From positions 1-35,303 of the IMG/VR virus record IMGVR_UViG_3300046557_000370: a DNA stretch of 35,303 nt, one strand, 5' to 3'. This document shows, one piece after another, positions 12,449 to 14,516 of this stretch. Within the stretch, counting starts at the first letter, position 1. Every line of letters begins with the position of its first letter. Under the pieces are notes generated by a model. It had not been told where the DNA came from, ran no database searches, and saw only the letters and a list, made by a program, of their open reading frames with translations. The DNA is from a virus. Made by a program: the position numbers and the translations under genes.

Positions 12449-12709
12449 CTAGTCGGCGGACTCGCTGCTGGCGCGGCGCTGCTCGGCCTCGTAGCGCTCC
12501 AGGAACTCGGCGGGGTTGGCCTCGATGACGTCAAGGACCCACGCCGGGACCACGCCCATGACGGCCTTCCTGCGGTGGGTGATGCGCGTCAGCGGAAGCT
12601 CGCCGAGCTCGGGGCGCGACTGCCGGATCGTCTCGCTGATCTGGCCCAGCACCTTGTAGACGTCGCCGGTGGCGTACTCGGTCACGGTCACTTTGGGCTC
12701 CATGGTCAC
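12449..12709 (-). CDS. Phd/YefM-like antitoxin-fold protein, no toxin partner
   Basis: An 86-aa protein (84 from the ATG at 12703). Its order of elements matches the Phd/YefM antitoxin fold: a V-T-V-T-E-Y start, a helix, then L-T-R-I-T-H-R-R-K-A-V-M-G-V-V-P, the place where antitoxins carry G-K-P-V-A-V-L-V-P. The C-terminus is a charged helix, the usual toxin-binding part. No toxin gene is adjacent. The GTG at 12709 lies 6 bases after a TAAGAT -10 box, so the mRNA is probably leaderless. It is divergent from the replication initiator and could be an orphan antitoxin or a repurposed repressor. Confidence 0.6.
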   Translation of the reverse strand: MTMEPKVTVTEYATGDVYKVLGQISETIRQSRPELGELPLTRITHRRKAVMGVVPAWVLDVIEANPAEFLERYEAEQRRASSESAD

Positions 12710-12715
12710 GTCGGG

Positions 12716-12721
12716 ATCTTA
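12716..12721 (-). promoter_or_regulatory. -10 box of the Phd-like gene (leaderless)
   Basis: TAAGAT on the minus strand, six bases before the GTG start; there is no Shine-Dalgarno. A weak -35 (TGGTGT at about 12740-12745) is 18 bases away. The spacer contains the CATTCAG direct repeat. Confidence 0.5.
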
Positions 12722-12723
12722 CA

Positions 12724-12739
12724 CATTCAGATCATTCAG
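12724..12739. repeat. Direct repeat CATTCAG-AT-CATTCAG, candidate operator
   Basis: Two 7-base copies 9 bases apart sit between the -10 and -35 of the Phd-like gene. That is a position where a bound protein would block transcription, for example the gene's own product. Confidence 0.4.
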
Positions 12740-12762
12740 ACACCATAGTCGATAGTACCACG

Positions 12763-12779
12763 AAGTACTAGCAGTACTT
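12763..12779. promoter_or_regulatory. Perfect operator-like inverted repeat
   Basis: AAGTACT-AGC-AGTACTT, 7-bp arms around 3 bases, in the middle of the region between the Phd-like gene and the replication initiator. The size and shape fit a homodimeric repressor site. A further AGTAC occurs 9 bases upstream. Confidence 0.55.
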
Positions 12780-12797
12780 GCAAGACTTGGACTACAC

Positions 12798-12821
12798 GAA
12801 CTTCTTGAAGTCCGCTAGGAT
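12798..12821 (+). promoter_or_regulatory. Promoter region of the replication initiator with an overlapping dyad
   Basis: TAGGAT (12816-12821) is a good actinobacterial -10 box. The bases before it form the near-perfect dyad GAACTTC-TT-GAAGTCC (12798-12813), so a protein bound there would cover the spacer. The -35 is poor. The transcript would carry a leader of about 65-100 bases that includes the first iterons. Confidence 0.45.
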
Positions 12822-12877: not shown

Positions 12878-12918
12878 ATAGCAACTTGCCAATGGCAACC
12901 GATGGCAAAGGATGGCAA
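12878..12918. repeat. Iteron-like repeats before the replication initiator
   Basis: ATAGCAACTTGCCA (12878-12891) is followed by three TGGCAA copies exactly 10 bases apart (12893, 12903, 12913). TTGCCA is the same hexamer inverted. The 14-base element recurs exactly at 13325-13338. Spacing of about one helical turn suggests binding of several copies of an initiator protein. Confidence 0.6.
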
Positions 12919-12927
12919 CCGAAAAAC

Positions 12928-13776
12928 ATGGCATGGGCTCGCCTCGACGACGGCTTCGGAGACCACCCGAAGGTCCTCGAACTCATCGACACACTCAACG
13001 AAATGGCCGGCGCGGCGGCCATTGGGCTGTGGACGCTCGGGCTCTCGTACGCGCACAGCACCATGCGTACAGCCAAGATCCCCGGTTACATTCCGCGATC
13101 GTTCGTCCATCGGGCAAGGGTCCCGGCCGCAGTCGGCGACTGGCTTTACGACGTTGGCCTGTGGGAAAAGGCTGACGGCGGTTGGATCATCCACGACTTC
13201 GACGACTACCTACCGTCATCAGAGCTCAAGGCGAAGCGCGCGGAAGCTGGCCGCAGAGGTGCCGAAGCCCGCTGGGGCAAAAAGGCAGCTCAGGAGGGGT
13301 CCGAGGAAGAAACGCCTGATGGCGATAGCAACTTGCCATCGGATGCCATATGGCAAGAAGGCAAAAAATGCCCCGAACCCGAACCCGAACCCGAACCTAA
13401 GAAGAAGACTTCGTCTTCTTCGAAGCGCGGGACGCGAATTCCCGATGGCTTTGCGATCAACGAGTCCATGGCCGCTTGGTGCCAGAAGGAATATCCACAG
13501 CTCAGCCGACAACGGGCCGAGGCCATCACTGTCGAGTTCGTGGACTACTGGCGCGGAGTGCCTGGCGCCAAGGGCGACAAGCTCGACTGGGAAGCCACCT
13601 GGCGAAACCGCATGCGGGCCAAGCTCGACGATCTCGCTGACGGCTCTGGCCAGTCCGGGACTCCGGCCGTCCGCAACGGACATCCTCCCCGCCGCTCCAC
13701 CACCGACGAACGCATTGAGCAGGCCGACGCCGCACTGGCCGAAGTCAAGCGCCTGATGAACGGGAATGCCGCATGA
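12928..13776 (+). CDS. Phage replication initiator / helicase-loader type protein
   Basis: A 282-aa protein from the ATG giving M-A-W-A-R-L-D-D, the usual family start; an ATG at 12892 in the same frame would run through the iterons. The N-terminal domain (1-110) is winged-helix-like, with D-D-G-F-G-D-H-P-K-V and G-G-W-I-I-H-D-F-D-D-Y. The linker is acidic then P-E repeated. The C-terminal domain (about 175-245) has V-D-Y-W-R-G and D-W-E-A-T-W-R-N-R-M-R, as in actinophage replisome-organiser/DnaT-like proteins. It likely binds the origin and loads host helicase. GC drops in the middle, where origin-like repeats lie, as in lambda O. Confidence 0.85.
   Translation: MAWARLDDGFGDHPKVLELIDTLNEMAGAAAIGLWTLGLSYAHSTMRTAKIPGYIPRSFVHRARVPAAVGDWLYDVGLWEKADGGWIIHDFDDYLPSSELKAKRAEAGRRGAEARWGKKAAQEGSEEETPDGDSNLPSDAIWQEGKKCPEPEPEPEPKKKTSSSSKRGTRIPDGFAINESMAAWCQKEYPQLSRQRAEAITVEFVDYWRGVPGAKGDKLDWEATWRNRMRAKLDDLADGSGQSGTPAVRNGHPPRRSTTDERIEQADAALAEVKRLMNGNAA
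13325..13421. other. Candidate replication origin inside the initiator gene
   Basis: In order: an exact second copy of ATAGCAACTTGCCA (13325-13338), then ATGCCA and TGGCAA iterons (to 13356), an A-rich stretch (GGCAAAAAATG), a run of CCCGAA hexamers (about 13374-13396) and the perfect palindrome GAAGAAGAC-TTC-GTCTTCTTC (13401-13421). Iterons beside a melting-prone stretch within the initiator gene is the lambda-type origin design. The repeats also encode a disordered linker, so they are free to serve as DNA signals. Confidence 0.55.
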
Positions 13777-14516
13777 CCAACGAGACCATCACCCAAGACG
13801 AGACCAATAACCTGCTGAAGGCCGCTGCCGCCCGCGACCAGCGCACCGTCGGCGCCGCGGACATCCTCGCCTGGTGGCAGGACCTCAATATCGCCGCCAT
13901 CCGCTACGCCGACGCCTCCGAGGCGGTCGCCCGGTACTACGCGATTCACTGGCCCAAGCAGCCGCCGAACCAGCGGTTCCGCCTCACCTCGCCGGTGCTG
14001 ATCGAGCTGGTCCGCGAGATCCGCGATGCCAGGCACGTTGCCTCGGGATTCCTGTATGAGCCCGTTCCCGGCGAGACCGGCGCCGAGTACGCCGCCCGGC
14101 TCCAGGGCCAGCTGCGCGCCGTCGGCGACGGGCAGGAGCCCGCGCACACCACCGCCGCGATCGGCATGAACCCCGAGGGCCAGCGGAAGCTGAAGGAGCT
14201 CGTGTCCGGCATGTCGCAGCGGCTGCCGTACCCGCCGGAGATAGCCAAAGTCCTGGAGCAGGCACGCCCGGCCGGATCGCAGATCGGCTGTCCCCGCTGC
14301 CGTGCGAAACCCGGTGTGAAGTGCTCCAACCCTGCCACCGGCAAGCCGATGGAACGGCTGCACGACTCGCGCATCGCGGGCTGGGCGATCCTCTGCGAGG
14401 CCTGCCCGGACTGCCGAGCCGCGATCGGCGACGCCTGCCGCGAGCTCGGCCAGCCCTACCGCGACCACGCGCACCAGGTCCGGATCGACGCCGCACGTCT
14501 GGCGATCGCCGCATGA
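13773..14516 (+). CDS. Phage zinc-finger DNA-binding protein, 247 aa
   Basis: The ATG overlaps the initiator stop. Residues 20-150 are helical without a known motif. The C-terminal 85 residues hold two C-P-x-C units: C-P-R-C-R-A-K-P-G-V-K-C with a following R-L-H, and C-P-D-C-R-A-A-I-G-D-A-C with D-H-A-H. This is the actinophage zinc-binding pattern often seen beside replication genes. It probably assists replication or binds origin DNA. Confidence 0.85.
   Translation: MTNETITQDETNNLLKAAAARDQRTVGAADILAWWQDLNIAAIRYADASEAVARYYAIHWPKQPPNQRFRLTSPVLIELVREIRDARHVASGFLYEPVPGETGAEYAARLQGQLRAVGDGQEPAHTTAAIGMNPEGQRKLKELVSGMSQRLPYPPEIAKVLEQARPAGSQIGCPRCRAKPGVKCSNPATGKPMERLHDSRIAGWAILCEACPDCRAAIGDACRELGQPYRDHAHQVRIDAARLAIAA

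Follow-up and report, generated by a model that had tools for sequence, protein, structure and literature searches.

Where does replication start in a phage whose initiator gene contains candidate binding repeats for its own product, and what besides the repeats marks the site? We addressed this question in IMG/VR record IMGVR_UViG_3300046557_000370, a virus sequence of 35,303 bases (GC 69%) that we refer to in its entirety as the window and that carries integrase (phrog_95), exonuclease, RecT, terminase, portal and head genes. To our knowledge, the origins of most actinobacteriophages are unmapped. A first-pass annotation had proposed a lambda-like origin within the initiator gene. Our analysis of the sequence suggests that the window probably represents a temperate actinobacteriophage with an intragenic iteron origin of the lambda design, in which a G-quadruplex/mini-hairpin module lies in a modest AT-rich dip. 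The features are collected in Table 1.

Table 1. Sequence features at the initiator locus, in window coordinates
Feature	Position	Strand	Remarks
Lowest-GC stretch, between divergently oriented genes	12701..12800	.	Inferred promoter/operator region of the initiator gene
14-mer copy 1, ATAGCAACTTGCCA	12878..12891	+	Best read as an imperfect iteron dyad
5′ iteron set	12886..12918	+	TTGCCA, then TGGCAA at 12893, 12903 and 12913 (period exactly 10)
Replication initiator gene, 282 aa (phrog_2447)	12928..13776	+	Winged-helix N-domain, disordered linker, helical C-domain
14-mer copy 2	13325..13338	+	Within the initiator gene
Inner iteron set	13325..13356	+	ATAGCAA, TTGCCA, TGCCA, TGGCAA; linker-coding part
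C-run tract	13371..13397	-	+ strand CCCCGAACCCGAACCCGAACCC then GAACC; - strand four G-runs with 3-nt loops, a G-quadruplex motif
Hairpin	13401..13421	-	Perfect 9-bp stem, 3-nt loop; - strand loop C(GAA)G
C-terminal domain	13427..13776	+	Module replaced in L002; aa 148-236 match phrog_3992 (primosomal protein)

The initiator starts at ATG 12928, the start codon conserved across its family, with ATG 12892 as a possible earlier in-frame start. The product matches phrog_2447 'replication initiation protein' over aa 1-165 (E 1.7e-25) and also phrog_3926, 3992, 1408 and 9474, and the matches in its C-terminal half are to primosomal and initiation families. All 34 aligned family members match both phrog_2447 and phrog_3926. 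The window protein did not significantly match lambda O or any of the 'replication initiation O-like' families, and 6/34 members of alignment A4 match an O-like family. With L364 as the query, the same N-domain was recovered in 407 phage records, all from actinobacterial phages by organism name.

The predicted structure (mean pLDDT 80, pTM 0.41) comprises a helical/winged N-domain (aa 14-94), a long helix (98-123), a disordered segment (approximately 125-165) and a helical C-domain (179-237). According to this model, the inner iterons, the tract and the hairpin lie in DNA that encodes the disordered linker, in agreement with the first-pass annotation. A fold search with the model returned no PDB match at E <= 0.001 (188 at E <= 10) and 15 matches at E <= 0.001 in a viral library, mostly with poor rmsd and including DUF1376 proteins, a replisome organizer and the HTH protein of Propionibacterium phage Anatole. 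The initiator C-domains are exchanged as modules, with primosomal, DnaD-like and O-like families represented among the 34 members. In L395 and L476 (Gusanita), an HNH nuclease sequence is fused to, or annotated within, the initiator N-domain gene at the linker position.

The neighborhood of the gene was also inspected. The minimum-GC 60-mer of the window lies at approximately 12716, in the promoter region, and a number of short palindromes that overlap one another (GTACCACGAAGTAC, AGTACTAGCAGTACT and others like them) occupy positions 12740-12815 of this AT-rich divergent region upstream of the initiator; these are possible repressor operators. The gene on the 3′ side (13773-14516) matches phrog_8924, a family without an assigned function, and its product has C-terminal zinc-finger repeats (Pfam Phage_zn_bind_8). 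Its profile matches give no recognizable helicase loader, and by position it is a candidate helicase partner. A helicase or helicase loader adjoins the initiator in the relatives Schmidt, TinaLin, Blett and MrSmee, and lies one gene further in 1191A. GC skew, which had been put forward as a check on the origin, showed no clear switch at the putative site along the window.

As originally noted, ATAGCAACTTGCCA occurs exactly twice in the 35,303 bases; we found no further match at up to 2 mismatches, and two matches arose in 0/100 dinucleotide shuffles. The pair alone is weak evidence, because 83 different 14-mers are repeated in this 69% GC window. The 14-mer by itself is likewise uninformative, as a scan of viral contigs returned at least 120 stretches; among the matches listed, two copies were present only in L034, the contig of L002. 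The unusual feature is the clustering of half-sites rather than the 14-mer pair: of all such sites in the window, the two clusters hold 6/14 for TGGCAA/TTGCCA and 7/10 for AT[AG]GCAA. An imperfect iteron dyad, ATaGCAA-c-TTGCCA(T), is the best reading of the 14-mer.

The 10-base spacing described for the first TGGCAA set was reproduced. Both sets had been placed inside the gene, which is correct for the inner set (13325 on); the 5′ set precedes the gene, because the family-conserved start codon is at 12928. The 5′ set is not general in the family (25/102, versus 15 and 23 in control regions), and it probably has an autoregulatory or auxiliary role restricted to the lineage of the window.

Downstream of the inner iterons, the CCCGAA hexamers and the 21-base palindrome of the first-pass annotation were both present, the former as four units at 13372-13395 and the latter as a perfect stem and loop. 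Apart from the motif at 13371-13392, the window has no four-C-run motif with loops of 1-4 nt, and the + strand of the window contains no four-G-run motif. Perfect 9-bp stems with loops of 3-6 nt number four in the window, and only the one at 13401-13421 has a triloop; its C(GAA)G hairpin on the - strand has a value of -7.1 kcal/mol. These elements had been recorded and left uninterpreted. The G-quadruplex motif, often accompanied by the hairpin, is the conserved part of the locus.

Two further claims need qualification. The A-rich stretch reported after the second repeat set amounts to just a few bases near the inner iterons (13363-13368), and the window's GC minimum lies elsewhere. A melting-prone region of the lambda type is also missing as a long AT tract; around the tract, across 104 loci of the family, we observed dips in GC of approximately 12 percentage points relative to the contig mean, directly before and directly after it.

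A close relative, L002, shares 75% identity with the window initiator over aa 1-165 and 51% overall, with a different promoter region and C-domain. Loss of the repeats from close relatives had been named as grounds for doubting the origin; L002 retains both iteron sets, the hairpin and all four CCCGAA units. The stem GAAGAAGAC/GTCTTCTTC of the window is GAAGAGGAC/GTCCTCTTC in L002, with one pair changed on both sides, a compensatory change. Homology between the two stops right after the hairpin, and the swap junction of the C-domains (13427-13776 versus L002:6520-6906) falls at this point.

This junction raises the question of whether the repeats serve as an operator or a recombination site, with the iterons as repressor sites of the initiator promoter and the inner repeats as a point of C-domain exchange. 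The position of the 5′ set between the promoter region and the start codon fits such a role, as does the end of the homology after the hairpin. However, the inner repeats and tract lie approximately 400 nt into the gene and recur family-wide with different iteron sequences, and a junction role would also be compatible with an origin. We regard this explanation as very unlikely.

Motif searches recovered further initiators of similar layout. L129, L163, L363 and L364, which were recovered by searching for either the tract or ATGGCAA followed by CCCGAACCCGAACCC within 30 nt, encode initiators with T[AG]GCAA iterons followed directly by CCCGAA units, and 3/4 have a perfect hairpin. As these loci were selected for the motif, they show recurrence rather than frequency. 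The scan for ATGGCAA plus tract returned initiators in 5/6 records, the exception being L144. In genome contigs, the iteron-plus-tract pattern gave 7 matches, none within an initiator gene as judged by eye.

Scans for the tract alone behaved differently. CCCGAA x3 returned at least 119 stretches from viral contigs, mostly in PEPEPE proteins of many kinds, and CCCGTA x3 returned at least 120 stretches, many of them long C-rich arrays in all frames outside initiator genes. No frequency was taken from either scan because the stretches were chosen for the tract, and a custom profile that drifted to low-complexity PEPE proteins was left out of the counts. Among the matches, L243-L362 (e.g., L244, L252, L293 and L307) are long C-rich hexamer arrays of mixed CCCGTA, CCCGGA and CCCGTC units, often exceeding 100 nt, in contigs filed as viral; they are open in three frames and frequently sit at contig ends. 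These arrays look more like intergenic repeats of bacterial chromosomes than like phage genes.

To obtain frequencies, we used loci chosen by the N-domain alone. The first set was derived from a scan with N-domain alignment A3, taking the best 80 of 114 loci, removing 4 seed records (76) and dereplicating to 67. The second set came from a scan with A5 (best 80 of 288 loci), of which 44 were new after dereplication. Both sets represent the nearest relatives of the queries and not a random sample.

A tract of 3-4 C-runs right after the N-domain was present in 64/67 loci of the first set, a figure that includes three-run tracts and tracts just past the stop codon, and in 40/44 of the second. Within the first set, the loci without one were L394 (truncated by the contig end), L395 and L446. 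The second set contained 33 loci with four runs, 7 with three and 4 with no tract (L506, L520, L532 and L533). In the first set, four C-runs were found within the ORF in 54/67 loci with loops of 1-7 nt and in 53/67 with loops of 1-4 nt, compared to 21.5 and 12.4, respectively, in synonymous codon shuffles. The C-side motif occurred in 1/381 control ORFs from the first-set loci (150 aa or longer, spurious ORFs included), as did the G-side motif; among the 67 loci themselves the G-side motif occurred once. For DUF1376 genes, 5/185 genomes had a match (6 matches), and an ORF was recovered in 2, neither with a linker C-tract, a sample too small to bear on actinophage-free groups.

These frequencies bear on whether the tract merely encodes a proline-rich linker and arose by slippage. 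In the window and in L002 the tract does have a period of 6 and encodes PEPEPEPEP, P153/P155/P157 are nearly invariant, and the same CCCGAA repeats occur in many unrelated proteins of viral contigs. Across the family, however, the spacing is mostly that of spacers (2,2,2), a period of 5 (41/64 tracts of the first set and 29/33 four-run tracts of the second), and all three reading frames are used (first C-run 59/32/6). A further 7/104 tracts lie outside the N-domain ORF. The usual period of 5, the three frames and the occurrence of some tracts past the stop codon indicate that the tract is not a protein repeat. Taken with the excess over synonymous shuffles and a hairpin that follows the tract, these observations contradict the linker explanation for the family, and we consider it highly improbable. 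The tract is an unusually clear example of a nucleic-acid element under selection in three reading frames of one gene.

The regularity of the tract might also reflect a different function at the DNA level, in which the tract and hairpin would be single-strand recognition units (5-6-mers) for the initiator or helicase loader and the hairpin a priming or loading site. DnaA-trios, repeated units that DnaA binds on melted DNA, provide a precedent. The strong 5-nt period, with GA as the commonest spacer, is what such units would predict, and the CC-run variants keep this period with two C per unit: CCACT repeats plus a hairpin in L532, and CCAGT repeats in L506 and L533, as judged by eye. On the other hand, spacers vary in length (1-4 nt) and sequence while the C-runs stay constant, a better fit to conservation of the runs. 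Constant runs with variable spacers thus favor the quadruplex, and the near-constant period of 5 favors recognition units, which we consider a somewhat unlikely explanation overall.

The DNA flanking the tract is distinctive in both sets. In the 130 nt before the tract, repeated 7-mers covered a mean of 49 nt in the first set, compared to 13 nt early in the gene and 19 nt in shuffles, and 49 nt in the second set, compared to 14 nt in control DNA; the iteron sequences themselves vary from phage to phage. Within 70 nt after the tract, perfect stems of 7 bp or more (loop 3-6) were found in 29/64 loci of the first set (controls 0 and 0; shuffles 1.1) and 21/40 of the second (controls 0 and 0). Overall, 50/104 loci have such a hairpin and 54/104 do not.

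Loops of the GNA and GNNA types, d(C-GNA-G)/d(C-GNNA-G), belong to a class of extra-stable DNA mini-hairpins. The 50 stems have bottom-strand loops of GNNA (25), GNA (7), TTTA (11) and other sequences (7), and stems of at least 6 bp are closed by C-G in 32/35 and 22/26 cases in the two sets. Stems with a single mismatch (n=9) carry A.C on top, i.e., G.T on the bottom, in 6 cases, G.T on top in 0 and other mismatches in 3. The mismatches and loop types, albeit in small numbers, suggest that the bottom, G-rich strand is the one that folds.

Strand preference is pertinent to the possibility that the element acts as RNA, with a structure in the initiator mRNA or in an antisense RNA controlling termination, translation or an RNA primer. 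Transcription is expected across the tract and hairpin, an antisense transcript would carry the G-runs, and an mRNA stretch rich in C and poor in G is similar to a Rho loading site. Nevertheless, the mismatch count of 6 to 0 favors folding of the bottom strand and hence not of the mRNA, although an antisense RNA would still fit, and the bottom-strand loops are mostly GNNA with a pyrimidine at the third base, unlike the GNRA loops of RNA. An RNA-level element is therefore unlikely in our estimation.

We also examined 28 named actinophage records, taken from the hit lists for diversity and thus non-random. A four-run tract (loops 1-7) follows the N-domain in 20/28: Fruitloop, Schmidt, B22, Footloose, Raleigh, PopTart, Yvonnetastic, Blett, Malibo, Bauer, TinaLin, Melba, Gudmit, LilSpotty, Ali17, MrSmee, prophi62-2, Wocket, Piccadilly and Lysidious. 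In Propionibacterium phage B22, the tract lies past the stop codon, in an annotated intergenic gap. Phage 1191A has three C4 runs after GATAGCAAA/CATGGCAAA repeats that closely resemble those of the window. Gusanita has top-strand G-runs, with C-runs further on in a longer gene, and Jebeks has CC-run repeats. Brujita, found via the C-domain only, has GGGGAACA repeats on top, i.e., G-runs on the other strand. VWB, Taheera, Gancho and Dori had no tract by the criteria used.

A stem of at least 6 bp follows in 7/21 of the named phages with a tract, 1191A included (Footloose, 1191A, Raleigh, Yvonnetastic, Blett, Gudmit and Piccadilly). We note that L475 (Wocket), L479 (Lysidious), L465 (Malibo) and L452 (Fruitloop) have no separate hairpin and instead show, as judged by eye, G-runs approximately 15-40 nt after the C-tract, which could pair with it. 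Words resembling TTACGTA/TTACCTA and CTTCTAGT recur near these G-runs.

For the intragenic origin that we favor, we infer the following series of events. The winged-helix N-domain would bind TGGCAA iterons in the linker-coding segment of its own gene, and the duplex would then open where the DNA around the C/G tract is locally richer in AT. The exposed G-rich bottom strand could fold into a G-quadruplex, joined in about half of the family by the adjacent mini-hairpin. Folding would prevent re-closing and mark one strand for helicase loading or priming, with either the folded or the free strand serving, and the C-domain would recruit the helicase machinery.

We tentatively extend this scheme, at somewhat less than even confidence, to many actinobacteriophages, which may share an origin type in which intragenic iterons are coupled to a one-strand folding module, a G-quadruplex often joined by a GNNA/GNA mini-hairpin. 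If true, such an origin would be held open by the folded strand, which would also steer helicase loading or priming to one strand, and bacterial viruses would have an origin coded in DNA structure. A selected G-quadruplex beside the iterons of a small origin would also make the role of such structures in origin firing testable. If the reading holds, the origin could be located from sequence alone in many genomes; hosts of phages among the 407 N-domain records include Mycobacterium smegmatis, Gordonia and Streptomyces, and these phages can be grown in laboratory strains.

Searching the open-licence PMC literature, we found no description of a G-quadruplex motif or such an element at a phage origin. 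The nearest known counterparts are the actinophage 'RepA-like / replication initiation protein' genes (Fruitloop gp67, Schmidt gp46 and Blett gp42), which have the same N-domain family and the same linker C-run tract. Their database annotations name the protein only, with no origin feature annotated in the regions examined. For the RepA prophage replicons of cluster A mycobacteriophages, one study suggests, by analogy to lambda, an origin in or next to repA (PMC7157519). The same study reports no repeated motif there, unlike the window (PMC7157519).

Lambda O, like the window initiator, has a DNA-binding domain at its N-terminus and a C-domain for helicase recruitment, and its gene likewise carries iterons in the middle, where the linker is encoded (nt 349-433 in lambda versus nt 398-429 of the window gene). 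Lambda O belongs to a separate sequence family and has no C3 or G3 repeat run. The comparison rests on lambda itself, and 80 near-identical records of O relatives form no independent control. The lambda iterons adjoin an AT-rich tract required for opening (PMC7466680). The window has a C/G tract and hairpin in a modest AT dip instead. What is supported of the proposed lambda O/ori design is the placement of iterons between the DNA-binding and C-terminal domains, an arrangement kept in L002; O homology and a long AT tract are not supported.

For the folding module, similarities are found outside lambda. Animal origins contain G-rich elements (OGRE/G4), with a quadruplex motif beside initiation sites; the window differs in being a phage sequence with a dedicated initiator and iterons. 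The early promoters of phage N4 and ssi sites are single-strand promoters or priming sites with C(GNA)G mini-hairpins. The window hairpin resembles them in having a short stem with a predicted extra-stable DNA loop on one strand.
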